IMG/VR virus record: IMGVR_UViG_3300017917_001775
Coordinates: 1 to 24,978 of that record
From: a virus
Direction: 5' to 3' (one strand)
DNA length: 24,978 bases
Every line of letters begins with the position of its first letter. Position 1 is the stretch's first letter. The notes below the pieces were generated by a model. It searched no databases and had not been told where the DNA came from. It saw only the letters and a list, made by a program, of their open reading frames with translations. Shown one piece after another: positions 1,860 through 24,710 of the stretch. The position numbers and the translations under genes were made by a program.

Positions 1860-3958
1860 TACTTTTTCCCTTTCCTCTGAGCCTGAGTTGGCTTAGGGAC
1901 AACCTGCCCTTGTGAACTTGGGGGCTTGAGAGCTGCTAAAACAGAAGGATCCAAAGTGATATCACCTGAAGGAGGACGGTTCTTGAAAAAATCAACCGTC
2001 CTAGCAGCTTCATCGGCCTCTCTACCTGACCGCTCAATGTCAGTCTCGGAACTTTCTAGCTCTGCCTGTCTGATCCTAGACTGTTCATCGAAGTTACTCT
2101 GTTCCAGATTAGCAAGAATCTGGTCTGTACTTATACCGGCCACTGGGCGTGACCTCTGAGGCAAAGCTCTGCCACCGTAATCATCGGGTCGATCCAAAAC
2201 AAACGTAGCCCTAACCGTGAATTGAAAATTATACTCCAGAGTATAGGGCTTATCATCAGTCTCAGTGATGTTGAAGTTGTCAAACGACCCGATGTAAAGA
2301 ATCGAGTCGTAGTAGATGTAAATCGAACCAACCAAAGAGAGCCTCGCGAAGAACTTATCCCTATTGGTCTCTTGCTCCAGCGGTGCAGTGAAGCAATACC
2401 CGTTATTCTTGTAGAGAAGAAACAACGAGAGAAAATTCCTATAACTCTCTGAGTAGTTCCTGGCTACACGAGTGAGCCCAGGACTAGATCCATCCCTATA
2501 CTGGGTTTGACTATTTGCATCAATGGCAAAAAACGCCGCAAGAGTCCCAGAGGCATCGATCTTATCCTGCTGGTCTCCCCAATGCTCCACAATGGGCCCA
2601 TTCCGGGTCCAATTACCATCGCTGACAACCTTCTCAGAACTAACCTTAAAGGACTTTGGGTTGACTAGCAAACGAAGGGGCGGAGTAGACCCCATCATGT
2701 CCAAAATGGACTTAGTTAACTTAGCCTCGGCACGCTGCTGACCTTGAAAACGAGCACCTAAAGTAGAGCGGTTTAGATCAGTGTCTACCTTTGCCTCAGA
2801 TTCCCGCTTCGATTGAGCCGCAGAAGTATTTCCTCCGTCAACCCAGCTACCATTTCCGGTATCTTTAGGTGGGGGAGAAGTAGCAGGATCAACAAAATCT
2901 GGAGGCTTACTTGAACCAACCGTGGTCATCGCCCGCTGAATTGAATCCCGAACCCCAGGGCTGGGCCGACCTGCAACGTTCTTATCCAAGATGGAAGGCA
3001 TGATCCTACCCTGTTCATCAACGAGGCCAGGGTTTTGCTTACAAACTTTCTCTTGGTAATCGGGATTCTTAAACTTGGCTCTATCTGCCTCGGGCAAACT
3101 ATTGATATATGCCTTGCTGGCATATATGCTACCATCTGGGTTCGTATAACCTCCAAAGTTGACACGATAAATCTGCCCTGCCTTCTTACCTTTGACATAG
3201 GCACCGCGAAAGTACTTCTCAGACCAGGGCAACTGTTGTTCCGGAGACAGGGTCGCGAAGTTATTCCAAACCTCGTCAGACATTCCAATCTTCTTAGCAG
3301 GTCCCAAAGTTAGCTGATTAAACCCCTGCGCAATTACTCTCCCACCTTGTTTATTCTGTGCCGCTGGACTAAAGTTGCTTTCACACTCCCACACAGCAGC
3401 CATCTCATAGGGGTCTACCTTAAGTCTCTGACACATCTGCACATAACTGACCCAAAAAGAAGGTTCAAGTGCGGCTCCTCTTGGGTAAGCGTTGCTATCG
3501 ACAAGTGTGACACCATTGTCCGAAACTCCGGTAGACTTTGCCCCCTCCCCTCCAACATAATTCCCAGACTGATCCCCATAATCAAGTTGTTGTTCCGGCC
3601 ATCCCGTAACACTTGCAATCGACGCCGACCGATCGAGCATTCTCCCTGTAATTTTGGCCGCCGGAGGGATAATTCCCACCACAAATAGTTTTGGGTTCGC
3701 CTTCGTCTGAGAAACCGGAATGAAGTCCTGATTTGAGTCGAACTGAAACTCACTACTAGAGAAAAAAGTCAGGAGATTGCGATACAGATCCGGCCCATAG
3801 TAATCCGCTGTATTTTCGATTTCATCGATGACACGGTCACCTCGCCGAAGACCGGGAGGGAGCGGATGTGTTGCCGCCTGGCCGCTAGAAACAGGAGAAA
3901 ATACCAACCTCTCATAAGAAGTTGGATCATTCCCAGTAGGGTTCCGTTGGTCAGCCAT
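1859..3958 (-). CDS. Baseplate/tail protein with lytic transglycosylase-like domain
   Basis: 699 residues from ATG at 3958; a GTG one codon upstream (3961) is an alternative. The ATG overlaps the previous stop by one base (TGATG). Residues about 165-310 resemble a lytic transglycosylase (SLT) domain: WECESNFSPAAQN has the typical E-S-x-F-x-P-x-A motif with candidate catalytic Glu193, followed by AQGFNQL near 210-216, matching the usual G-(L/F)-x-Q motif. Residues about 430-590 repeat the fold of the neighbouring 222-residue protein, with shared landmarks VNP (432), HWG (459), NNG (518), YIG (555) and ETDD (566). The C-terminus is charged, then proline/lysine rich. The likely role is a hub-proximal baseplate component that opens cell-wall peptidoglycan during DNA entry. 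The enzyme assignment is by motif only; activity is unproven. Confidence 0.75.
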   Translation of the reverse strand: MADQRNPTGNDPTSYERLVFSPVSSGQAATHPLPPGLRRGDRVIDEIENTADYYGPDLYRNLLTFFSSSEFQFDSNQDFIPVSQTKANPKLFVVGIIPPAAKITGRMLDRSASIASVTGWPEQQLDYGDQSGNYVGGEGAKSTGVSDNGVTLVDSNAYPRGAALEPSFWVSYVQMCQRLKVDPYEMAAVWECESNFSPAAQNKQGGRVIAQGFNQLTLGPAKKIGMSDEVWNNFATLSPEQQLPWSEKYFRGAYVKGKKAGQIYRVNFGGYTNPDGSIYASKAYINSLPEADRAKFKNPDYQEKVCKQNPGLVDEQGRIMPSILDKNVAGRPSPGVRDSIQRAMTTVGSSKPPDFVDPATSPPPKDTGNGSWVDGGNTSAAQSKRESEAKVDTDLNRSTLGARFQGQQRAEAKLTKSILDMMGSTPPLRLLVNPKSFKVSSEKVVSDGNWTRNGPIVEHWGDQQDKIDASGTLAAFFAIDANSQTQYRDGSSPGLTRVARNYSESYRNFLSLFLLYKNNGYCFTAPLEQETNRDKFFARLSLVGSIYIYYDSILYIGSFDNFNITETDDKPYTLEYNFQFTVRATFVLDRPDDYGGRALPQRSRPVAGISTDQILANLEQSNFDEQSRIRQAELESSETDIERSGREADEAARTVDFFKNRPPSGDITLDPSVLAALKPPSSQGQVVPKPTQAQRKGKK

Positions 3959-4626
3959 CACAACCCCGTAGTCACAGGGACAGTTGTTGCACCGAGAGAA
4001 TTTCTAGACTGAAAAGAAGGAACTCCATTATATACAGGGAAAGCGGTAATCGGAATTTGCTGAATCGTATGCTCTACCTTGAAGTTCCATGTCAGCTTGA
4101 AGGCAAAAGGAGAGTCGTCTGTCTCCTCTACTGAAAAGCTTCGAAAGGTACCGATATAAGTGCCACGATCAAACAGGATCATGACCCTACCCTGAAGAAC
4201 GATGTTCCCGTAGGGATCATAAACAGACCCATTATTGCGATACAGGTCATAGAGGTCCCTATACCGATCCCAAGCTATAGTCCGCTGTCTCAAAACCGAT
4301 GAAAGGCCCGTATACAGATTAACAAATGCGCCGGTGCTTTGGTCGGCGGAGATCTCAGTCAGGTCGTCCCCCCAATGTTGCTCTACAAACCCACCCCTAG
4401 TTTGAATCCGCTCGACCTTCTTATTGAAGGTCTCAGCAAAACTCATTGGATTCACATGGGAAATGAGAGCATGTGGCAGTAGCGCCTTCTGGAAGTCATA
4501 AGGGCTCGTGACCTGGAAGGCAAGAGGCACATAATGCCTTCTAGTATCTGCACCATGAAGGTAGACGGGTGCTCCATCCGTAATCGGAGCAAAGTTCGAG
4601 GGGTTTGCCGAGCGAATATAGGCCAT
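3958..4626 (-). CDS. Baseplate-associated structural protein, paralogue of the next gene's C-terminal domain
   Basis: 222 residues. ATG at 4626 overlaps the tape-measure stop (TAATG), and its own TGA overlaps the next start, so three consecutive tail genes are coupled. The body (about 55-190) aligns by eye with residues 430-590 of the following protein: VNP (58), EQHWGDD (82-88), YRNNG (129-133), TYIG (156-159), VEETDD (166-171). The N-terminal 50 residues and the Thr/Val-rich C-terminal 30 residues have no counterpart. Position directly after the tape measure matches where contractile phages carry tube-initiator or hub-connector proteins, some of which carry LysM-like domains; I see no clear LysM motif, so I name only the context. 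A structural role is well supported by synteny, the exact role is not. Confidence 0.65.
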   Translation of the reverse strand: MAYIRSANPSNFAPITDGAPVYLHGADTRRHYVPLAFQVTSPYDFQKALLPHALISHVNPMSFAETFNKKVERIQTRGGFVEQHWGDDLTEISADQSTGAFVNLYTGLSSVLRQRTIAWDRYRDLYDLYRNNGSVYDPYGNIVLQGRVMILFDRGTYIGTFRSFSVEETDDSPFAFKLTWNFKVEHTIQQIPITAFPVYNGVPSFQSRNSLGATTVPVTTGL

Positions 4627-7600
4627 TAGTTGAACTTCTCCCTACGCTTGTACTCGTACACTCCCTGATTTACCTTCTCCCTTATGAGGTTAGCCAGATC
4701 CTGACCCCCAATCCCGTTGACATTCACCGTGATATGAGGAGCCCCTCCACCTTCCCCTCCGGCGGGAACAATACGCTCTCCTTTTCCAATCGAGGTCAAC
4801 CCTTCACCCGGCGCTGGATTAATCTGTGCTAGACCTCCAGAGATACTTGCTACGAAACCGCCCTCAGCTTTTGCGGGCAGGTTAACAAAGCCTTCCTTGT
4901 ACTTCTTTTCGTCGATATACTCCTGTGCTTGCCCTCCCACACTCAAACCAGAATCCTGCATTCTTTGTAGAACCTGATTAGGGTCAGAAGCGGTGTAGAC
5001 GGCGTACTCGAACAAGGCAACACGAACTGCCTCCAAGACTCCCTTCTCTACTGTATCCTTGATCTTCGTTTCGAGCTGGGTTTGGTCCAACTTCACACCT
5101 TTTCGCCGCAAAGCATCCCAAAGATCCTGAAGGTTACTAACCGTCTCTTTCTCGGCAATCTCCTGATTCGAGATTAACTTAGCAGTAGCAGTATCCGGGG
5201 TTGAGGTTTGCATTGGACCATTGACAGGGAACATAGCGGGTTCCGTTTTTGCGGGAGCTACAGGAGCTGCGGGAGCAGCAGAGGCAGTAACAACCCCTGC
5301 CATCCCTGGGGCAGAAGACTTCGCGGTAGACGCAGCTTGACCAGTTGGTGCCGTAGCAGAAGCCTGAGGTGCACCTGACGCGGTTTTGTTAGATAGAAGC
5401 CCCATCTGAGGTAGAGTCTTAGCCAAACTCTCCGGAGACATCGCCCAACCAGCTTTTTTGATAAACTCCGCGTAGTCCTTTTCGTCAAACCCAGCGTCTG
5501 ACATCGCTTTCTGGATAGTAACCTGAGGAAGATTTTTATCCCCTCGATCAATAGCGGCTTGACGAGCCTCCTGCTGTACAATAAGGGAGTCTTGGAACTT
5601 ATCCCTCTTGCTCTTATCAAGGGTGTCCATCATTCCAATAGCCTTAAGACCACCCTTCTCAGTGTTCAGGTCACTATGAGCCGCAATATCCTCAATGGCA
5701 TTTGCGAGAGTCTTATTCTTCCCAAGGACAGAAAGCTTTGAGAATGACTCCTCCGCCTCTTTGGTAAATTCCGTCAACTCGTCCCCGACGAGCGCGTGTC
5801 CGACTATCTTTTCCTTAGCAGCCTTTTTTTCCTCAATGTACTCCTTCTTATCGCGTTCAGAAGATCCAGACAGGGCCTTATCAAGCATAGGACCCACAAC
5901 GTCCATCATCTTGCCCTTCTTCTTCCAAACATCGGTCTCACCAGCACCAGCCTTCAAAATTGCATCTACATTGGCAGCATTACCCTCATCCCTAAAATGC
6001 CTAAGAGCCTCATCCATCTTCTTGGCCTCGGCATCTTTCCGACCGCCAAAAACCGGCGCAACAAGGTCAATGAACTCATTGATGGTTTTTATGATGTCCT
6101 TCAAGGCAACATAAAGGTGGTTGAAGATACCATCAACAACCCGCGCTATCTTGTCCGTGATAGTAGTTGTAGCTTCAAATGTCTTAGCCGCGTAGTCAGT
6201 CTGCTCTGCTGCTGCTGCCAGGTTATCCTGGTCACTCTTTTCCATCGTAGCGATGATGTCCGCATCATCCGCTGCCTTGATAGCCTTCTCATCAGTGAGT
6301 TTCATATTATCCATTCGAGAGAGCATCTGCTTGTCCCCCTCACTCAGATCCTCACCCCTGGCACGTTTTCCAAGCAGCTTGACCATCTCATCCTTCTGGT
6401 CATCGACAGCAGCCTCTAACTTCGCCATCTGACGAAATTGCTCCAATGAGACACCCGCTGATTTCCTAGCAGCAAATGCTTGGATACCAGACATATCCCT
6501 AAGCTTACCACCCCCTCCAAACCGTTGAAGGGCCGCCTTGGTAGCAGTAAGGGCCCCCGCCGCAGAAAGATTCGAGGCTGCTTCCTGAAGGCCCATTATC
6601 CCGCCTTTTTTAATGGCATTCTGGTCCATCTTCACTTCTTGAAGGAATGACTTAAAATGCGCCCTCTGCCCCTCTGGAACCTTCTTGAGCATCTCCTCCA
6701 TCTTTTCCGAAGCCCCTGCTACTCCATTCTGGGCATCCTCAACTACCTTTCGTACCTCTTCAGAGGATACCCCGGCATAAGAAGCCATATCTGCATATGC
6801 GAGCTTAGTTTTTCTCTCTAAATCCTTGGTAACGATATCACGCATCTTCCCTTCCCCAGCAAGAAGGGTCATACGGAGGCGTTCCTCCTCAGACATCTGC
6901 TTCATACCCTGAGTAGCTGTCTGCATGAACTTTTGAGCTTCTCTGGGGTTCATCACTTTCCCGAGAAGCTTAAGCATTGTGGCAGCCTGTCCGATTCTCG
7001 TCGTGTAAAGACCAAGATCCGCCGAGACTCCTCGAAGAATCGCAAAGAACTTGTTCGTCGCGATTCCTGACTCTGCTGCCTCTTTGGTGAGACGGGCGAA
7101 TTCTAACTTCATCCCAGAGATGCTAGTACCCATCTCGGTAAACATCTCTGCCTGAAGGTCAGTTAGCTCATTCACACTGACCCCCATCAGCCGGGCGTAG
7201 GCAAAGCTCATTCTCGCCATATCACCAAAACCCTTAACTTGACTCGCTGCCTCCTCAGACGAATCACCGGCATTCTTAAACGCCTGGGTCATACTTTTAA
7301 GGGTAATCCCCTGTTGAGCCAAGGCATTCGTCGTTCTGATTATATCATCAGGACTAGTTCCCCACTTGATGTTCTCGGCTATATTTGTGGCATCCGACCG
7401 AACCTGATCCATTACCTTATCAAGCTTCTGAAAAGCCCCCCCGGCAGACTTACCACTTTCATACATAAATTCAGCAGACGAAGCGCCTTCCAAAAGGTTT
7501 TTATTCATATCTTTGGCAGCCGCCTCAACATCGAGGACAAGCTTCACAATAGCGGCAAAGATACCAGCCGAGGCAGACAAGATAGGGCCCATCTTGGAAA

Positions 7601-14127: not shown

Positions 14128-17100
14128 CTAACGCCGATAATCGTAATTGCAGGGGCAAGTTACCCCCCCATCAGCCTTACAGCCTTCTCCTTCCTTGCAC
14201 TCACCCTCACAAGCTATACTCTCTTTGCACGCACCCTCACAGTCACACTCCCCGAGGTACTCATCGGATGCCTCTTTTTTGATATCGTATGCAAAAGCAA
14301 TTAGAGTACTGGCAAAAGCCCCAGATCCAGATCGGGCCGTCTTATCAAACTCCGCAAAGGGATCCTCCGGGCTAGATTCCAGTGCAAGCTCCTGTTTCGG
14401 GTCAGCTATAGCCAACTCCTCTTCATTTTTTCCAACAGGTTGCTCGGGACCCTTCTCCCCAACTATCGGAATGCACGCCTCTCCGATAAACCGAGAGACC
14501 GGGGCCGGTTTTCCGAGATAGTTTTTCTGAGGCGCCATTACTGTCACGGATTGCTCCGCACGAGTAATAGCAACATAAGCGAGACGACGTTCTTCGTCGA
14601 ATGCTGTTACATCACCCTCCGCCTCTTTTTCCGCAGTACGGAAGTTGGGGAAAATTCCACCAGACATACAGACATAGCAATGCTTCGCCTGAAGCCCCTT
14701 CCAACCATGAACAGTGCCAACAAGAACAGCAGGCTCTTTCCAATCTTCTTTCTTCTCGGGAGTCTCTTTTTGGGCTTTTTCGTTAGCTGCCTTCATCTTC
14801 TGAACAAAACCCAAAAGATTCCCAGGGTCCTTAAAGTTTTCAGCCATAATCATCAGTGGATTGAGTGGTGCCATAGCAGCATTACGCAGGGCCTCTGCTC
14901 CACCTACACCTTCCTCTTCGACAAGCTCATCCTCGTCCACTAACTTGATCAGGGACTCCTCAAAAGTTCCCTTAATGCCCTTGACACCAAGGATTGCTCG
15001 AATGAGAGAGGGGGAATCCATGCCACCCGAAATTCGAATGGTACGGATTACGTTTGCATACTCCATTACCCGCTTGTTAAGCCAATCAACGCTACCAAAG
15101 TATACCTGGCCCCCGCTCATAATATAGTCAAGGTAGTTCTTTCCACGAGCATTACGGGCAAGGTTCTCTGCAAATCCCTTATTTAGACCGAACCCAGGAG
15201 TCATGTGTGCATCAATGAGCGCCTCATTAATCTCGGAATCGCTCCCACCCACGATAAGGCGCATCCAAGCCGTAAGTGCCCTAACGAGAGGCTTACCAAA
15301 GTACCCACCCGAAGACTTGGTCAAGAGACGATAAGGGATTCCACGGGCCAAGAGAGCCAAGGTATATGCATCGTGCTCCGCATTGTTTCGCACAAGAATT
15401 CCAAAGTCCTTCGGGCTATCACCGGAATCAATTGCGTCCTTGATCTCCTGTGCCACCATGTTCGCGGCATCTTCATGTGTAGCAGCACTCTTGGATCGAA
15501 TTGAGCCCATACCCTTTAGTTCTACATCAGCCTCACAGACCATCGGGATTTGTCGATCACCGTTGTGGGCAATGAGCTTGTTCGCTGCATCCACAATAGC
15601 CTTCCCAGAACGGAAGTTCAAGGTCATCAACTTGGTCTGAAATCCCTCTTTCTTTGACAAGTCCACGTAATTCTTAGGCTTCGCTCCTCTGAAGGCGTAG
15701 ATGCTATTATGACTGAGGATCCCACCTCCGAAAAAGTTAGACGCCTCAGTCACATCAAGATCTAAAAATGTGCCCTCTACCTTTTCCACAGAAATGATAG
15801 CTTCATGTATCAAGTTTGACCCTTCCAGGACTGGCACTTTCATCCCAGGAAACAAAGCCGAGGCAGTAAGGAGATTCAGAGGCCCCTCAGCCGTTGAAAG
15901 GCGACGAGCAAGATTTGCCTTCGTGGCTTCTTGAAGCGCTTCAGCGAAAACGAGACCCTCTCTATAATTCCCGAACCACTTCCGGATCCTCTTTGTACCC
16001 TTTGAGGTATTAGCAACCTTGTAACTCTGAGTAACCTCATCCAAGTCATCTCCCATCCATTCCAAAGTCACCTGTGTTCCGGTAGGACTATGGGCAATCA
16101 TCTGAATGGTGCGACGGATCCTCCCATGCTTGGAGTAAGATCTTGACATCCAATGAGGAAGATTGAACGAAAGGTGCTTGCTCTGAAGGATTTTCAGGCC
16201 GTTCTCGCCAAACTCAGAAAACAAACTTGTAATCCTGCTCTGATTCAGCCCACGATGCTCACCTTCAAAACATGAAGTGGGAACCCCATATTTCAAAGAA
16301 TAAGATTCCTCAGCTAACAAGGCTTCTTCTCGGTCGTTACAGACTTCAAGAACCCAAAGCCTTTCAGCTTTCTCCAAAAAGGCTCGACCACCAAATCGAT
16401 TGAGGTAGTCTTCCTCACCTCCAGACTTGTTAGTTACTCCAACACGGAATCCCATGTCTCGACGGTACATTAGGTACACAATCATCTGATCACCCTCAAG
16501 CTGAAGGTCATCAGCCCAAATCTTGTGATTTGGAGACATAGTTAGAGTTTTTCCACTCTCCGTCGTAATCCTGTAACCCCAAGTCCAAGAGGAAGGGTTT
16601 ATGTGAACTACTTGGGGCCTAAGCTCCCCGTTTCTAAAGGATAAGACCTGATCTCCATCACGGAGAAGAGAAGCTTCTTTCGTCCCATCTGGGGTGGAAA
16701 TAAGAGTGTCACTAGAAACACATTGTTTATCGTCCCCTATAAATGCGAGCAAATCAGCTTTCTCCCCGAGGATCTGAAACATTTCAAATTGTATTTCGTT
16801 GAGATCCTGAGCCTCGTCCACCATAAGGGCTTTGAAGCGGCGCTGCTCAGCAGCACGAGCAGCCGGGTCCTCCTTGAGAATCTGAAGGGCCACTGTGAGC
16901 TGATCGGTATAGTCCATACAAGGGCCAAAGACCTTATCATTTTTCTTCAGCCACTCATAGGCCCCATACAAGGACGAAATACAATCATCTCCACGTTCAG
17001 ATCTCACCTGATCCACGGACTGCCCAGAATTCTTGAAGTTGTCCACCAAGAGGAGAGCTTGCTTCTCACTCAGAGGTTTTCCATTTTCATCAGCAACTGG

Positions 17101-18582
17101 CAAACCGATGTTAAACCATTCCCCAACAGGAGTGGTCCAATACGGACTACCACTGTCTCCTCCAGATGAAACCGAATCATAGGCAGCATCCACTACCATT
17201 CCGGTCTGACCCATAGCAGTACGAACCGCCTGAACCACCGAGGCATCCTCTTCCGCATACCGACGGCGATAATAACCCCCACCACTACGCCAGTTGTCCA
17301 AAACGGATTGCTGCTTCTCGGAAAGTGCCCAACCCCGACTAAGCTGATCGTAAAAGGACTTGAGGATCTTAGTGTCCCTCCATCCCGGAATAGATTCAAT
17401 GCGCTGCATGTTGTCTCGCGACTTGTTCAAACCCTCCTGGTAACCAGAAATGCTCAATGGCACCTGTCGCATCGCCAATTTGAATGCCATCCTAGCCTGT
17501 TTATTTTTGTTCACCGCCTGAACAAGTTGCGGACGATTCTTGATGATGATCTCACGGGCAATCGAATGCGTGGTACCGACCCGTACCCCATGGATCCCCG
17601 CTCTTTCTGTCACACGAGAGTCAAGCTCAGAAGCAGCAGCTCTAGTGAAGGAACAAGCCATAATCTGCCCAGGCTGGTAACCCTTCTCTTCAACTAAATG
17701 TGCAATAGTAGCCACAAGAGTTTGCGTTTTCCCCGAGCCAGCTCCAGCAGCAATAACCACATTCCCCATAGAACGCATCACATCTTCTTGTTCAGGGGTA
17801 AGTCCAAACTTGGCAGAAACTTTAGATTGTGCTGCATAACGACTCGCTGCTGCTGCACCAACCGTCTGGGGATCGTCTGAATCCTCTACTGCTTCATTGA
17901 GGTCAGCAGCTAAGTTGAGCTTCTTATCTTCCAATTCAGCTCGGGCAGGGGACCCCACAGGCTCAACATTAATTCTGCGGTCCGTATCTTTCAACTCCTC
18001 TGCAATCGCCTGAGCAGATTCCACTTGCGCAGATACTGCCTCAACCGTAGGAGCCGGGGCACCCAAAAGCTCAGCACTCTTCCTAACCCACTTAAACATA
18101 GACGAGAGTCCAGAGCTTGTTGGAACCACAGACAACTTCTGTACCCTCGCCTCAACATCAGGCTCCTCGCAAGCTACAGCAACCTTAGACGCATTTGCGT
18201 AGACCCTCCCTGGGAATATATCCCTCATAAGCGAGGTCCTACGTTTGACCCAAACCATGAAGTCCTCTACGAATCGGGCTTTTCTGGTGGGATCTGGCTG
18301 ATCCATGAAACGAAACTTAGACTCAAGAATGCTTGCATCTGGACGCTGAATGATCGACTCAAGGTGCTTTTTTGCCGCTTCCTCAATCGAACTTCGGTGC
18401 ATACGATAAACGGCCAAACCCTTATTAAGGTGCTCAGTATTGTCTCCAGCCAGGGTGTATGCATCGATTGCCAAAACAAGAACCATCAAGTCCAAGAGAC
18501 GGCCAGGAGAGGTTTCCTTGACCTCCTTCGGGTTCGCACCTTCAGCCGCAATGAGAAGCCTCTCGTCAATTTTCAGCGTCAT
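14128..18582 (-). CDS. UvrD/PcrA-like superfamily 1 DNA helicase with intein and Cys-rich tail
   Basis: 1484-residue precursor; ATG at 18582 with GGAG nine bases upstream. Helicase motifs are in order: motif I AAGAGSGKT (278-286), Ia ACSFTRAAASEL (309-320), II MVDEAQD (587-593), III GDDKQ (616-620) continued after the intein by SIYAFRGA (960-967), IV LNFRSG (988-993), V GTVHGWKG (1289-1296) and VI YVAITRAEQ (1336-1344). These fit an ATP-driven 3'-5' DNA helicase of the UvrD/PcrA/Rep group. Residues 621-959 are an intein; spliced protein would be 1145 residues. About 255 residues precede the helicase core and are not recognised. The end carries eight cysteines in 33 residues (1446-1478). Role: DNA repair, replication or recombination of the phage genome; a packaged virion protein is possible. 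Location within tail genes is unusual. Confidence 0.93.
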   Translation of the reverse strand: MTLKIDERLLIAAEGANPKEVKETSPGRLLDLMVLVLAIDAYTLAGDNTEHLNKGLAVYRMHRSSIEEAAKKHLESIIQRPDASILESKFRFMDQPDPTRKARFVEDFMVWVKRRTSLMRDIFPGRVYANASKVAVACEEPDVEARVQKLSVVPTSSGLSSMFKWVRKSAELLGAPAPTVEAVSAQVESAQAIAEELKDTDRRINVEPVGSPARAELEDKKLNLAADLNEAVEDSDDPQTVGAAAASRYAAQSKVSAKFGLTPEQEDVMRSMGNVVIAAGAGSGKTQTLVATIAHLVEEKGYQPGQIMACSFTRAAASELDSRVTERAGIHGVRVGTTHSIAREIIIKNRPQLVQAVNKNKQARMAFKLAMRQVPLSISGYQEGLNKSRDNMQRIESIPGWRDTKILKSFYDQLSRGWALSEKQQSVLDNWRSGGGYYRRRYAEEDASVVQAVRTAMGQTGMVVDAAYDSVSSGGDSGSPYWTTPVGEWFNIGLPVADENGKPLSEKQALLLVDNFKNSGQSVDQVRSERGDDCISSLYGAYEWLKKNDKVFGPCMDYTDQLTVALQILKEDPAARAAEQRRFKALMVDEAQDLNEIQFEMFQILGEKADLLAFIGDDKQCVSSDTLISTPDGTKEASLLRDGDQVLSFRNGELRPQVVHINPSSWTWGYRITTESGKTLTMSPNHKIWADDLQLEGDQMIVYLMYRRDMGFRVGVTNKSGGEEDYLNRFGGRAFLEKAERLWVLEVCNDREEALLAEESYSLKYGVPTSCFEGEHRGLNQSRITSLFSEFGENGLKILQSKHLSFNLPHWMSRSYSKHGRIRRTIQMIAHSPTGTQVTLEWMGDDLDEVTQSYKVANTSKGTKRIRKWFGNYREGLVFAEALQEATKANLARRLSTAEGPLNLLTASALFPGMKVPVLEGSNLIHEAIISVEKVEGTFLDLDVTEASNFFGGGILSHNSIYAFRGAKPKNYVDLSKKEGFQTKLMTLNFRSGKAIVDAANKLIAHNGDRQIPMVCEADVELKGMGSIRSKSAATHEDAANMVAQEIKDAIDSGDSPKDFGILVRNNAEHDAYTLALLARGIPYRLLTKSSGGYFGKPLVRALTAWMRLIVGGSDSEINEALIDAHMTPGFGLNKGFAENLARNARGKNYLDYIMSGGQVYFGSVDWLNKRVMEYANVIRTIRISGGMDSPSLIRAILGVKGIKGTFEESLIKLVDEDELVEEEGVGGAEALRNAAMAPLNPLMIMAENFKDPGNLLGFVQKMKAANEKAQKETPEKKEDWKEPAVLVGTVHGWKGLQAKHCYVCMSGGIFPNFRTAEKEAEGDVTAFDEERRLAYVAITRAEQSVTVMAPQKNYLGKPAPVSRFIGEACIPIVGEKGPEQPVGKNEEELAIADPKQELALESSPEDPFAEFDKTARSGSGAFASTLIAFAYDIKKEASDEYLGECDCEGACKESIACEGECKEGEGCKADGGVTCPCNYDYRR
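15706..16722 (-). mobile_element. Intein in helicase motif III with GIY-YIG-like segment
   Basis: Residues 621-959 of the helicase precursor. The N-terminus is Cys621 (CVSSDTLISTPDG, block A), block B has TMSPNHKIWA with His686, and the C-terminus is FFGGGILSHN, His958-Asn959, followed by Ser960 as the +1 nucleophile. All residues expected for class 1 splicing are present. Insertion splits GDDKQ from SIYAFRGA. The middle has no LAGLIDADG motif; instead IVYLMYRR (701-708), FRVGVTN (712-718), Arg729 or Arg733, and AEESYSLKYGVPT (757-769) resemble the strand, Y-x-G, Arg and Glu landmarks of GIY-YIG nucleases. Splicing should restore the helicase; the nuclease part could drive homing into intein-free helicase genes. 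Splicing is highly likely; the nuclease class is a tentative reading. Confidence 0.93.
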
Positions 18583-18635: not shown

Positions 18636-19688
18636 TCAGAGGTTACTTACGAACCTAGAGGCAACACGAAGAGCGATCCCGTCATCAAGGCTCGCATTTT
18701 TGACGGAACCTCGAATCGCTGTTTCAGATAGCTCAAAACTGTCTGGTATATCCCAATTCTTCCAATTAGACGAGAGATCATACTTATTGAGGTCCACTTT
18801 CCTAGCCTTGAGAAGATCAAGCACCTCAGTTACAGCGCTCTCAACCTCCTTCAAAACTCTTGAACCCTCCTTAGGGTCAAATTGGACTAAGTCGTGAACA
18901 TAGGCCCCCAAGTAATCAGAGCCCTCCCTGAAGTACCGGTCCGCCACAGCCTCAGAAATAGACACCGAGTCATCGTAATTAGGACCAAGGCCAGTCACGA
19001 TGAGACCATACACTTGCTTTGATTTCGAAAACAAGTCTCCCATCATCTCTTGAACAAGCTTCCCCTTGGTATACTGCTCCTCAAGATCCGACAGTCTAAT
19101 CTCCTGAGGGTTGGACAATCCTCGGTACTTACTAGCAATCCGGAGAGTGATTCCATCCATCTCCTTAACAAGTGCCAAGATTTTTCTCAGAGCTTTTTCA
19201 TCATCCTTAGACGTTGGACTCTTAAGGCTTTTCTCAGCTTCTTCTTGCACCAAGTCAAGGACATCTGCGAATTGATCCATAAGAAAAGAACGAAACGGCT
19301 CTTTTCCCCGGAATGCAAACGCAAACAGAGAATGACGAGACATAGCTCGAACTGCCTTCTCCGAGGCCTTCCGGATCGTAACAATATCCCCTCTTAGTTT
19401 TTCCTCCGCTCTTTCCCTGTCTTCTTCCTCCTTGGTCCGTTGCACAATGAAATCATTACGAAACTTCCCGTCCAAAACCTCTTTAGCAACATTGACCTCA
19501 ACCATCTTAAGAGGGTCCCCACCACGATCCGGATGGTTCTCCAAAACTTTACGCTTATAGGCCTTGGAAATCTCAGAAGAACTTGGAGTAGAGTTCGCGG
19601 AGAAGCCAAGTATTTTCTTTGCCTCTTCCAAAGACATGGAGAGGAAAAGCCTGGCATGAAGCTTTCGGGCTGTTCGACTAGTGTACAT
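18636..19688 (-). CDS. J-domain (DnaJ-like) co-chaperone protein
   Basis: 350 residues. A J-domain spans about residues 18-75: helix I SLEEAKKILGF, helix II ISKAYKRKVLENHPDRGGD with the key His52-Pro53-Asp54, and helix III VNVAKEVLDG. The HPD triad is what stimulates Hsp70 (DnaK) ATPase. No Gly/Phe or zinc-finger region follows, so this is a class C type J-protein; the remaining 275 residues are mainly helical and unrecognised. A related short motif occurs twice, GITLRIASKYRG (179-190) and GIALRVASRF (337-346), the latter almost at the C-terminus. Start ATG at 19688 has only a weak Shine-Dalgarno; Met18 would also keep the J-domain. A probable job is recruiting host DnaK to a phage protein, perhaps the neighbouring helicase or tail parts. 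Confidence 0.85.
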   Translation of the reverse strand: MYTSRTARKLHARLFLSMSLEEAKKILGFSANSTPSSSEISKAYKRKVLENHPDRGGDPLKMVEVNVAKEVLDGKFRNDFIVQRTKEEEDRERAEEKLRGDIVTIRKASEKAVRAMSRHSLFAFAFRGKEPFRSFLMDQFADVLDLVQEEAEKSLKSPTSKDDEKALRKILALVKEMDGITLRIASKYRGLSNPQEIRLSDLEEQYTKGKLVQEMMGDLFSKSKQVYGLIVTGLGPNYDDSVSISEAVADRYFREGSDYLGAYVHDLVQFDPKEGSRVLKEVESAVTEVLDLLKARKVDLNKYDLSSNWKNWDIPDSFELSETAIRGSVKNASLDDGIALRVASRFVSNL

Positions 19689-20390: not shown

Positions 20391-23300
20391 TCAAATTCTT
20401 GCACGCAGGTTGAATGTCAAAACTAGATACAGTAGGGGGAAAATCGGTTGGTAGTATGCCTCAGCGCGAAGCACTGTTGGATCCTCTGGGTCTATTACCG
20501 CAGAGATACCAGTGAATGCGGCCACAATTTCCTGTTGAATGAGCTGATTGAAGAGGCTGGTCATTGAGACCTCAACCTCATTCGTCCGGCTTGACAGGAA
20601 CTTGGTTCCGACAAAGGCATCCAACACCGAGCGGCTGTTGATCGAAACGTAGTCGGCAATCTGCGTGACAGTCGGGAGCCTAGTGAGGACCGAGGTCATG
20701 TTGGTCGTGAGACCCTGACGGATCCGCACGATCGGGTCCAAGTCTTCCAGAATGGTCACGCCAGCCACAGCCGTCTGGTTAGCTTCTACCGGGTCCAGAA
20801 TGCGCGGGATGCGGGTAAAGCCCTGGATCTTCCTATGCGTGTATGGGGTTGCTACGTCCACTGCTGGGGAACACACAGCCCCAGAAGCAGCAGCCGCAAA
20901 GAAGGTGCCATCTACCAACGTTTCGAAAGTCTCACCTAGTTCATTGGAGAGGGTAATAACCGCCGAATCTGGGTAGAATGCAACCACACGCTGAGAGAAC
21001 AAAGACCTAGCCACCGTTTGAGCATTCGTAGGTGAAGTGCCTGACGCAAAACCAATGAAGCCCATCCGCTCTGACTGATTACGGATGTTACTCATGATCT
21101 CACAATGCTGAGTCAAAAATGAGTAAACTGATGTGTCCGTAGAGAGGGGCACTAGGAGGTCTGGTTTGATATTCCCTGGGAGTGGGGTAGCAAGGTCTGT
21201 GATCGCAGTGATAAACGATTGAGACGATGCCTGGTTTGTATTAGGCACCTTCTGCACCTGCTTGACCCCCACAAGAACAGCGCCATTGATAATCGCCAGG
21301 TAAGCAGCAAGAGTGACTCGATTTTCAGCACTAAGCTTACCGTAGTTTGCCTCAATGGTCTTAAACTGACGGTAAATCCTAGTGGAGTAGTCCTGTTTCA
21401 GGAACCGATAGGACATGAAGTAGAAGTCACCATTTTTCGGCTCCAAGCCACTCGGGTTAAAGGTCTGAACATTAGCGGTGTCGTTCACACCCACGCTAAC
21501 CGTATTAGTGACAAGGGTTTCCAAACCAGGAATGGCATAGTGTGGAACAGACGGATTCACATTGAATGTCGGGGAAACTTCCAAAGTAAAGGAACCACTT
21601 GGGGTATAGGAACCTTCTTGAGCTGGAAGAACCGTAAATCGTAGGCCGGTTCTACTATCCATATAGGTCTGACCTGGAGTTCCCATCCCACTAGAACCGT
21701 ACGCATTTGAAGAGGTAACAGTGAAGTTGTCGGTTGCGTCTTCCCCGTTATCCCCATCTGTCCCTGGAACGATTCCTGTCCCCGTCATGACGTTGAATGC
21801 AGAATTGGATCCAGTAGCAAATCCAATAGACGATGTGGAACCTAGCACTAAGGACTCAACGGTCAGGTAAACTTGGCCGTTTATTACCGAAGGATAAGCC
21901 ACTGCGCCATTCGTGTTCGCAGTCGGAGCAGTACCAGGCACACCAGGGGCCCCCCAAGAGGTTACAGCGAAGTTCACGCTCGCCATGAGACGGTCCACGA
22001 CTTCCTGAACATTGACCCTAGCCTGGCTAGCAAAGTCACCTTCAGTGAAACCAAGGGTTGCATTCGCTGAACCATTGAGGATCACAATTGAGGATTGTTC
22101 GGAGTTCAGGTTGCTCGTAATTCGAATCTTATTGAGATTGTCCAAGGTTCCGACAGTAGCAGAACCTTGAGAAGCAATGACTGTGTTAATGTCACCAGCC
22201 ACCTGAGTCGCTGTCGTTGAACTAGGATTGATCGTAGCTTGGAAATCCACACCGTTGATTCGAAGTTTCAACACATCATTCAAACCAGAGGTGATCACGA
22301 ACGGTCCTGCATTCCCACTCAGTAGTGTTGCAGGCTTATTAATAGCACCCGTAGTGCCATACGCCTCCTGGAAGGTGGTAAACCCAAGAGTGCTTTCGGC
22401 CGTTCCTTGGCGTACTCGAACATAACTCTTATGGTCAAATCCACCAGGTAACGCCCCAGGAACAGAATAACTGCGAATGACGAAGAATGTATGAGTAGTC
22501 CCAGGACCGGGAATAGCAACCGCAAGGAAATTGTTCGCTGTGCCGCTAAACTCTGTCTTGGCATCAATCGCCGTGTTGATATCGTCCACAATCTGTGCCG
22601 GAGTCCTAGTGCCAGCCGTAAGCGTGACATCCACATTCACACCATCGATGGTGATGTTGAGGGTGTCATTAGACCCTGAAGTAATAGTGATGTTTCCCCC
22701 ACCAGAAAGAGCAACCGGCTTACTAACCAGGTAGCCCAATGAGGCGGTATTGAGGTTTGTTGCTAAGGTCAAAGCACCGTTTAGGTCAGTCCTCCAGGTA
22801 GCCGACGAAGGAGTGTAGAAGGAGTATGGCTGGGGGCCCTTATTTGTGAATACCGCGTTCGTAGCGGGCGCTTGACCAAACGTAACGGTGACAGTCTCCC
22901 CAACCGGAGTTCCACCAACATGCAGAGCATCTGGCACTTGCTCGACACCTCGGGGCCACTGGACAGTTTCCACTAGCCCGCCACCCTTAGTGCCAAACCT
23001 CACATGATAAAGGTTTGTGTTAAAGAGGGAGGAAAATACCTCATACTGACCTTGCCCAATCGGACCAGGAGTCTTGCAAGTGATGATGTAGGTATCGTCT
23101 ACCAAACGACTATAGTAGAAAGTCGCGTAAACATTCCAATCTGGTGGAATCGGATCTTTCAGGGTGATTTTACGGTTAAGTCCATCAACAGCGGTAACCT
23201 TTACTGCGGGACGTCCGAGGGCATCCCGAAGAGTTCTACCCACGCGAGCAATTACCAAATCAGGACGATTTGTGACGAGATCCATACGCCCATTAGCAAC

Positions 23301-24710
23301 AGACGAGTAAGTGGTCGCACCAAGAGGTGTATTACGACCGTTTCCGGTCGTTGGAATCGCTGGGAGGACAAAGATCTGAGTACTAGTCCTCGAGGGAACA
23401 ACTGCGGTATCAATGAAAGCGGTACAAGGGACAAGATAGAGCTTGTCGTCCACCATACTTGGTACAACCTGAGATTCATCCAACGGCTCGGCACCGGGGG
23501 TCCGCAAAGTCGAAGAAATCGAGTAACTGGCTCCCCAGTGCACCACCGAAACATCCGGGGAGGGATTACTAACTACGAAATCTTGGCCTTGAATGTAGTC
23601 ACTTCGGTTCGGAGAAATACCCGCCCGAATCACGTTCGTAACAAGAGTGTTTGGTAGGTAGTCAAATGTGTCCTGCCACGTATTGGCCCAGTAGGTAATG
23701 AGTACGCTAGCACCAGGAGGAGGAGCAGAGGGCAAGGTAACAACGCCGTTGGTGCCATCGACCACAGTTGGAATAACCTGCACTCCACTGACCTTAACTA
23801 CAACCTTAGAAGGATCGGTTGTGGTTACCCCACCAGAGGTACCATCTACCACCGGGATATTGAAGACCCGAAAGTCCTGATTTCGAACTGTTTTCTGCCC
23901 ATTGGACAAGGCCAAAACACCATTTGCATTACCCGTCCCAATTTCAATAGATGTTTGGGCAGTGAATTGGAGATGACTCTTTCCGTCATTCCCAACAAAA
24001 ACTGACGTAGTAAGACCAGGAATCAAAGCCGCATCAATCTGAGTCTTCAAGCTAGAAGCTGTAGAAGAGGTACCCGGAAGAAAAGTAACTATGTACTCCA
24101 CACCACCGTCCACACGAATCTTTAGGGTATCGCTAGAGCCAGTCACAATCGAGAAAGGCTCAAACCCTGGAGTGACAATAGTTGCCGGAGTCGCTGTGAC
24201 TTGGTCAGAGACGTCATCCGTAAACGCAGTATCCCCACGATGGAAGAAGTAGGTACACTTTACTATCGAGGTTGCCAAAGGAGGCACCTGAAGAGTGACC
24301 TCACCTGTAGCACCCCTAACAGCTCCAACCGCTACCGGAACATTGTCCACTGTGACAGTGACAGATCTGACGTCATTCGTAGTGCGACCAAATCCCTGAC
24401 CGTCTACGATCGGAAAGTTCCGGACCTTAAAGCGAGTTTCTGTCCCGTCGCTCGTGCCCAAAACAGGGTTCGAAGGATTCGTGTCATTGACGATCCACCG
24501 AAGACTCACATCCTCGTTCACAATTTGCTGGTCTAGTGTGGAAGAAGAACCCCGGACCAACTCAAGATCCAGCTGTTCCAACTCCTCCTGACCAACACCA
24601 ATAACGACAGGAATGCGAAGGCCAGCCACAAGGGCGGCAACATTCGCTTCGGTCAATGTTCGCGAGTAAACGCCAGGGGGTACGTAGGTCGAAAAAGGTC
24701 CAAGAGCCAT
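20391..24710 (-). CDS. Tail sheath protein, very large with repeated inserted domains
   Basis: 1439 residues; ATG at 24710 with GAGGAGA about five bases upstream. The N-terminus (YVPPGVYSRTL, 9-19) and the C-terminal 370 residues, ending with LFNQLIQQEIVAAF and a beta hairpin, match contractile-tail sheath proteins, whose C-terminal arm links subunits and drives contraction. Typical sheaths have about 350-800 residues; the excess lies between about 90 and 1060. Two repeat families are visible. Family A: FKVRNFPIVDG (94-104) and FRVFNIPVVDG (280-290), each followed by a strand-rich 70 residues, with a weaker third near 489-541. Family B: SSDTLKIRVDGG (192-203), SNDTLNITIDGV (680-691) and LNDVLKLRINGV (810-821). 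These would decorate the outer surface of the sheath. Some may bind host surface or stabilise the tail. Confidence 0.9.
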   Translation of the reverse strand: MALGPFSTYVPPGVYSRTLTEANVAALVAGLRIPVVIGVGQEELEQLDLELVRGSSSTLDQQIVNEDVSLRWIVNDTNPSNPVLGTSDGTETRFKVRNFPIVDGQGFGRTTNDVRSVTVTVDNVPVAVGAVRGATGEVTLQVPPLATSIVKCTYFFHRGDTAFTDDVSDQVTATPATIVTPGFEPFSIVTGSSDTLKIRVDGGVEYIVTFLPGTSSTASSLKTQIDAALIPGLTTSVFVGNDGKSHLQFTAQTSIEIGTGNANGVLALSNGQKTVRNQDFRVFNIPVVDGTSGGVTTTDPSKVVVKVSGVQVIPTVVDGTNGVVTLPSAPPPGASVLITYWANTWQDTFDYLPNTLVTNVIRAGISPNRSDYIQGQDFVVSNPSPDVSVVHWGASYSISSTLRTPGAEPLDESQVVPSMVDDKLYLVPCTAFIDTAVVPSRTSTQIFVLPAIPTTGNGRNTPLGATTYSSVANGRMDLVTNRPDLVIARVGRTLRDALGRPAVKVTAVDGLNRKITLKDPIPPDWNVYATFYYSRLVDDTYIITCKTPGPIGQGQYEVFSSLFNTNLYHVRFGTKGGGLVETVQWPRGVEQVPDALHVGGTPVGETVTVTFGQAPATNAVFTNKGPQPYSFYTPSSATWRTDLNGALTLATNLNTASLGYLVSKPVALSGGGNITITSGSNDTLNITIDGVNVDVTLTAGTRTPAQIVDDINTAIDAKTEFSGTANNFLAVAIPGPGTTHTFFVIRSYSVPGALPGGFDHKSYVRVRQGTAESTLGFTTFQEAYGTTGAINKPATLLSGNAGPFVITSGLNDVLKLRINGVDFQATINPSSTTATQVAGDINTVIASQGSATVGTLDNLNKIRITSNLNSEQSSIVILNGSANATLGFTEGDFASQARVNVQEVVDRLMASVNFAVTSWGAPGVPGTAPTANTNGAVAYPSVINGQVYLTVESLVLGSTSSIGFATGSNSAFNVMTGTGIVPGTDGDNGEDATDNFTVTSSNAYGSSGMGTPGQTYMDSRTGLRFTVLPAQEGSYTPSGSFTLEVSPTFNVNPSVPHYAIPGLETLVTNTVSVGVNDTANVQTFNPSGLEPKNGDFYFMSYRFLKQDYSTRIYRQFKTIEANYGKLSAENRVTLAAYLAIINGAVLVGVKQVQKVPNTNQASSQSFITAITDLATPLPGNIKPDLLVPLSTDTSVYSFLTQHCEIMSNIRNQSERMGFIGFASGTSPTNAQTVARSLFSQRVVAFYPDSAVITLSNELGETFETLVDGTFFAAAASGAVCSPAVDVATPYTHRKIQGFTRIPRILDPVEANQTAVAGVTILEDLDPIVRIRQGLTTNMTSVLTRLPTVTQIADYVSINSRSVLDAFVGTKFLSSRTNEVEVSMTSLFNQLIQQEIVAAFTGISAVIDPEDPTVLRAEAYYQPIFPLLYLVLTFNLRARI

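Follow-up and report, generated by a model that had tools for sequence, protein, structure and literature searches.

An intein in a phage UvrD-like helicase gene

The window analysed here comes from an IMG/VR virus record and is 24,978 bases long. On its minus strand, positions 14128..18582 encode a UvrD-like superfamily 1 helicase precursor of 1484 aa with an intein inside it; the coding sequence matches Pfam UvrD-helicase (3.6e-44) and UvrD_C (8.9e-25), and phrog_1967, DNA helicase, in PHROGs (1.2e-89). A preliminary description of the sequence had placed this gene in a tail cluster, and its neighbours, an SLT-domain protein, a phrog_985 virion protein and a DUF2460 protein, fit that placement. 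Directly upstream of the helicase, still within the tail-gene cluster, positions 18636-19688 (minus strand) encode a protein that has a DnaJ domain at its N terminus (Pfam 2.6e-6). Positions 20391-24710, on the same strand, encode a 1439-aa protein with a weak DUF2460 match which, from its size and position, is perhaps a tail sheath with inserted repeats.

The intein, like all features described below, lies on the minus strand. It spans 339 aa (15706..16722, helicase aa 621-959) and interrupts helicase motif III, with GDDKQ on one side and SIYAFRGA on the other. The boundaries proposed in the preliminary description proved exact, its insertion point was borne out, and the class 1 splicing residues that it listed are all there: Cys1, His66 (helicase 686), His338-Asn339 (958-959) and Ser+1 (960). 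Residues 1-75 of the intein (16498..16722), with Cys1 (16720-16722) and His66, make up the N-terminal part of its Hint splicing domain, which was recognised through NCBIfam intein_Nterm, a phmmer match to the gp41-1 intein and modelled strands at residues 7-70. The C-terminal part (aa 286-339, 15706..15867) ends in His338-Asn339 and was recognised through Pfam Intein_splicing, intein_Cterm below its cut-off, and the model. Taken alone, the window intein scores 3e-6 against Intein_splicing, under that model's cut-off, and 24.0 bits against intein_Nterm, whose cut-off is 24.5; Intein_splicing is matched by all 33 of its aligned relatives. The first C-extein residue, Ser+1, is encoded by AGC (15703..15705), and AGC or AGT is also used in the other Ser+1 phage inteins compared, with the exception of L016 (TCT).

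An AlphaFold model of the full intein, built on the alignment of 33 relatives (pLDDT 93.4, pTM 0.90), shows a Hint fold split around an inserted domain. A Foldseek search with this model returned Hint matches to the gp41-1, RecA and VMA inteins, and only Hint domains were among the matches listed. The splicing residues, the predicted split Hint fold and the precise absence of the insert from homologous genes all fit, and together they confirm that the insert is a class 1 intein, from which we infer that it splices.

A nested domain with a predicted GIY-YIG core

Between the Hint halves, AlphaFold predicts a strand at residues 80-87, a strand at 91-97, a helix at 110-116, a strand at 121-128 and helices at 131-145 and 161-181, and a second model gave the same order. 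The predicted core is thus beta-beta-alpha-beta-alpha; its strands and helices follow one another as in the GIY-YIG nucleases, the type that the preliminary description had suspected in this region. We therefore describe a GIY-YIG-like nuclease domain with its core at intein aa 80-156 and a following helix at 161-181 (16180..16485), on the basis of the model, profile comparison with hhalign and its neighbours among predicted viral structures in BFVD.

Residue conservation was counted over 65 distinct copies of the nested domain. The equivalent of the GIY tyrosine, Tyr83 (16474..16476), lies on the first strand of the predicted core and is present in 63 of the 63 copies with a residue there. 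On the second strand, Arg93-Val-Gly95 (16438..16446) corresponds to the YIG half-motif, and Gly95 is invariant (63/63). Because Arg93 is kept in 62 of 63 copies, with a single Lys, arginine takes the place of the YIG tyrosine in the nested domain as a whole. Arg113 (16384..16386), equivalent to the central GIY-YIG arginine, is found in 60 of 63 copies, and Glu138 (16309..16311), equivalent to the metal-binding glutamate, in 64 of 65. VYLMYR, FRVGVTN and the arginine that follows them were thus correctly picked out at the outset as GIY-YIG pattern residues; the glutamate then assigned to an E-x3-L-x4-P end was not, since the conserved residue is Glu138 (helicase 758), one position earlier, and position 139 varies.

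Searches with single sequences found nothing for the nested domain in Pfam, NCBIfam, PHROGs, PADLOC or the PDB sequences. No single member matched the GIY-YIG models of Pfam, NCBIfam or PHROGs, with none of 33 reaching E<=1 against PF01541, and a profile of the nested domain found no match among PDB sequences. Comparison of alignments by hhalign brought the relationship out: over 60 columns, at P 3.5e-6 and with a probability of 88%, a profile of 57 copies aligned in register with 65 domains of Pfam PF01541. The GIY strand is matched by VYLM and the YIG strand by RVG, and the EALLxE helix pairs with its GIY-YIG equivalent. In a column-shuffle control the real score of 32.5 stood against a maximum of 19.1, and none of 200 shuffles reached it. 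The 65-copy profile gave P 2.8e-6 against Pfam GIY-YIG and the family profile P 5.7e-6 against the UvrC subset of PF01541; the match to the small YhbQ-type subset alone was weak (P 0.013), and a shallower profile stayed in register with GIY-YIG, also weakly (P 0.0016). As a yardstick, the same test compares GIY-YIG with MUG113 or T5orf172 at P about 4e-4 to 6e-4, which is weaker than the match between the nested domain and GIY-YIG. MUG113 and T5orf172 are GIY-YIG relatives with 'KIG'; as their profiles aligned with the nested domain over only a few columns, the domain is assigned to neither. The HNH profile failed against the nested-domain profile (P 0.57-0.58), as did that of LAGLIDADG (P 0.14), and the nested region holds neither motif, in line with the preliminary description.

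Structure comparison gave weaker signals. A Foldseek search of the PDB with a model of the segment aa 76-285 returned nothing at E<=0.001, with no GIY-YIG structure among the matches listed. With a structure aligner, the best clean match of the same model to a solved structure was weak, namely the GIY-YIG domain of UvrC (1yd6; Z 3.7, 3.8 A over 70 residues), the rest of the list being filled by a second module. Searching the predicted structures of BFVD with the segment returned the intein's own family first, followed by GIY-YIG, NUMOD, intron and Seg-like endonucleases (E about 0.01-0.2). Homology and predicted structure thus support the GIY-YIG-like reading of the domain; neither of the two results that the preliminary description had named as counter-evidence, a predicted fold lacking the GIY-YIG core and a clear match to a LAGLIDADG or HNH nuclease, was obtained.

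This second module, an alpha/beta unit at intein aa 200-276 (15895..16125) delineated by the alignment and the model, is a candidate target-recognition module. The long UvrD inteins contain it, and the short ones of methyltransferases and terminases lack it. No confident match to it was found among solved structures (best Z 5.9). An AP2-like DNA-binding domain was considered, but the structure search gave it no support, returning shell proteins, eIF1, FERM and MutS folds, all at Z<6, and the module is left unassigned.

Presence, absence and transfer of the intein

The GDxxQ/SIY site is empty in L243, L246, L261 and others. L243 is the closest helicase relative of the window (C-extein 62% identical, N-extein 49%), and in the C-extein tree the two group together, with 100% support for the branch that separates them from the rest. 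The intein most similar to that of the window, at 66%, is found in L244, although the exteins of L244 share only 29% and 38% identity with those of the window. AU tests reject the extein tree on the intein alignment (1.6e-7) and, conversely, the intein tree on the extein alignment (2.4e-4).

A closely related pair of alleles shows the polymorphism directly: L262 carries a 1032-bp intein exactly at GDDKQ/SIY and L261 does not, while their flanks are 98.6% and 96.9% identical. The mismatches between them cluster at the junction and include a change from TCG to AGT for Ser+1, the kind of trace to be expected of a short co-conversion tract derived from another donor; the pair reads equally well as gain or as loss of the intein. 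In L017 and L038 nuclease residues are lost and the splicing residues kept, a pattern of decay that is expected in a homing cycle. The intein thus behaves as a mobile element, with presence/absence polymorphism and horizontal transfer both demonstrated.

The wider intein family

A tblastn search with the window intein found 38 phage records at >=80% coverage and about 42% identity or less; the full-length relatives are mostly phi92-like coliphages, at about 41% identity. Scans of viral and genome contigs with single proteins found no relative, and alignments were needed. In UvrD-type helicases the family occupies sites in motif II (DE/CQDLN in L013 and L015, DLNK/CQ in L020), motif III (GDxxQ/SIY, and GDxxQ(x)LY/C or S in L005 and L044) and motif V (GTCH/STKGAEW in L015). 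Its other hosts are N6/N4 DNA methyltransferases, terminase large subunits and a DNA polymerase processivity factor (sliding clamp). Bacterial carriers include streptococci, planctomycetes and alphaproteobacteria, mostly in methyltransferases, with one planctomycete UvrD; a further planctomycete match to the nuclease domain (L134, E 3e-4) was discarded as a chance match that is not an intein.

Several genes carry more than one intein. The helicase gene of L013 has two of the family, and a single UvrD-like helicase gene in L015 (IMGVR_UViG_3300028920_000035) has three, in motifs II, III and V (1699-2889, 3001-4041, and a domain near 5647-5886). In L024, one open frame (2770-3744 onward) holds two consecutive family inteins in a host protein with no Pfam match. 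The helicase of Klebsiella phage KP13-16 (L002, CDS 2240-5836) combines an intein in Walker A that is LAGLIDADG-like (LGVLIGDGYL, GLMDTDG) with one in motif III that is GIY-YIG-like. Variation also touches the splicing residues: a family intein in L048 (2749-3576) has Ala rather than Cys at position 1 (GDDDQ/AGVLGTKI) and may use another splicing route, and one in L281, just upstream of 3501, ends in Ser-Asn rather than His-Asn with its other parts kept.

The phi92-like phages (Justusliebigvirus; for example MZ501084 and MZ501100) carry the same intein end to end, at about 41% identity and at the same site, GDxxQ/(S/C)IY, including the YLMxR...RVGxT...R...E domain. Their helicases are only distantly related to that of the window, and the +1 residue is Cys in these phages and Ser in the window. 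Two of their GenBank records label the gene 'intein-containing UvrD / Rep family helicase precursor' and do not name the nuclease type.

Discussion

Our sequence comparisons, coupled with the structural models, make it likely that this class 1 intein is mobile and has its own GIY-YIG-type homing endonuclease, for which both cutting and splicing are putative activities. We propose that the Hint halves would excise the intein and join GDDKQ to SIYAFRGA, as their residues suggest, and that the nested beta-beta-alpha-beta-alpha domain would, by homology, cleave helicase genes that lack the intein, at the motif III codons or close to them; repair from a copy that has it may then spread the element. 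In the active site, Tyr83 may serve as the general base that activates water, with Arg113 steadying the phosphate and Glu138 holding one metal ion, roles drawn by analogy with studied GIY-YIG enzymes (PMC4081073, PMC10287932). Arg93 would replace the second tyrosine, and the accessory module at aa 200-276 could, more speculatively, lengthen the recognised site.

A different reading, which we regard as unlikely, is that the nested domain has a structural, regulatory or DNA-binding function rather than that of a nuclease, and that the intein moves by general recombination or through a nuclease encoded elsewhere. The weakness of the solved-structure match is in keeping with this, and other inteins have been proposed to home in trans (PMC5871332); against it, near-invariance falls on exactly the GIY-YIG catalytic positions, the GIY-YIG profile matches in register, and the copies that lose these residues keep those for splicing, as expected of a decaying nuclease. 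It is also rather improbable that the family is GIY-YIG-derived while the copy in the window is a fixed, non-mobile remnant. Decayed relatives do exist (L017, L038 and L022), and no sister of this particular phage without the intein was found, but the window copy is an open frame that retains Tyr83, Arg93, Gly95, Arg113 and Glu138 as well as every splicing residue, the nearest relative of its helicase has an empty site, and the histories of intein and helicase differ. It is most improbable that the domain represents a homing endonuclease of the LAGLIDADG or HNH type that is too diverged to be recognised, for although these are the usual nucleases of inteins, and LAGLIDADG meganuclease structures occur among the insignificant Foldseek matches, their motifs are absent, their profiles fail where that of GIY-YIG succeeds, and the order of the core and its invariant residues fit GIY-YIG.

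The GIY-YIG superfamily is defined by a domain of some 100 residues that contains the GIY and YIG half-motifs, an Arg at its centre and a Glu towards its C terminus, and that folds into three strands with helices on their flanks (PMC1564403). The window domain shares with its members I-TevI, the UvrC N-domain and R.Hpy188I the strand and helix order, the GIY Tyr, the YIG Gly, the central Arg and the C-terminal Glu. It differs in lying below all library thresholds, in being nested in an intein, in having Arg at the YIG Tyr and in the 17 residues between Gly95 and Arg113. A departure at the second tyrosine is seen in an accepted member of the superfamily, R.Hpy188I, which has Lys at this position (PMC2630997).

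Inteins themselves, GIY-YIG nucleases and the annotation of this intein in relatives are already known. In LAGLIDADG (DOD) inteins such as PI-PfuI and PhoVMA, a Hint fold likewise has an endonuclease between its halves, although of a different nuclease superfamily. Inteins are known to pair with LAGLIDADG and, rarely, HNH nucleases, and GIY-YIG nucleases to accompany group I introns or to be free-standing. The 2006 survey of the GIY-YIG superfamily did not find it in inteins (PMC1564403), and the 55 GIY-YIG genes in a 2025 study of huge gut phages were all stand-alone (PMC12363816). In the split class 3 intein AceL NrdHF a GIY-YIG nuclease is also associated with an intein, but as a separate free-standing ORF between the split halves (PMC7891396), whereas that of the window is a domain of one continuous intein. 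Our literature search, mainly of open-access papers, found none that places a GIY-YIG domain inside a continuous intein.

From this analysis, it seems probable that the window intein belongs to a broad unnamed class in phages, prophages and bacteria, hosted by at least the UvrD helicase at several sites, the N6/N4-methyltransferase, the terminase large subunit and the sliding clamp, in which a nested homing endonuclease of the GIY-YIG superfamily has an Arg-for-Tyr active site; this would add a nuclease superfamily to those reported within continuous inteins. Neither Pfam nor NCBIfam detects the domain, and many such inteins have therefore probably been recorded as nuclease-less or as plain helicases. 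L261 and L262 are natural alleles that closely resemble each other and differ by the intein, and the BASEL coliphages are cultivated hosts, both of which are usable for direct tests of homing. The catalytic variant, in which Arg stands at the position of the YIG Tyr, is relevant to the mechanism of GIY-YIG enzymes, and an intein family that is widespread and has a GIY-YIG-like nuclease would fill a gap among the few pairings of homing nucleases with splicing elements.
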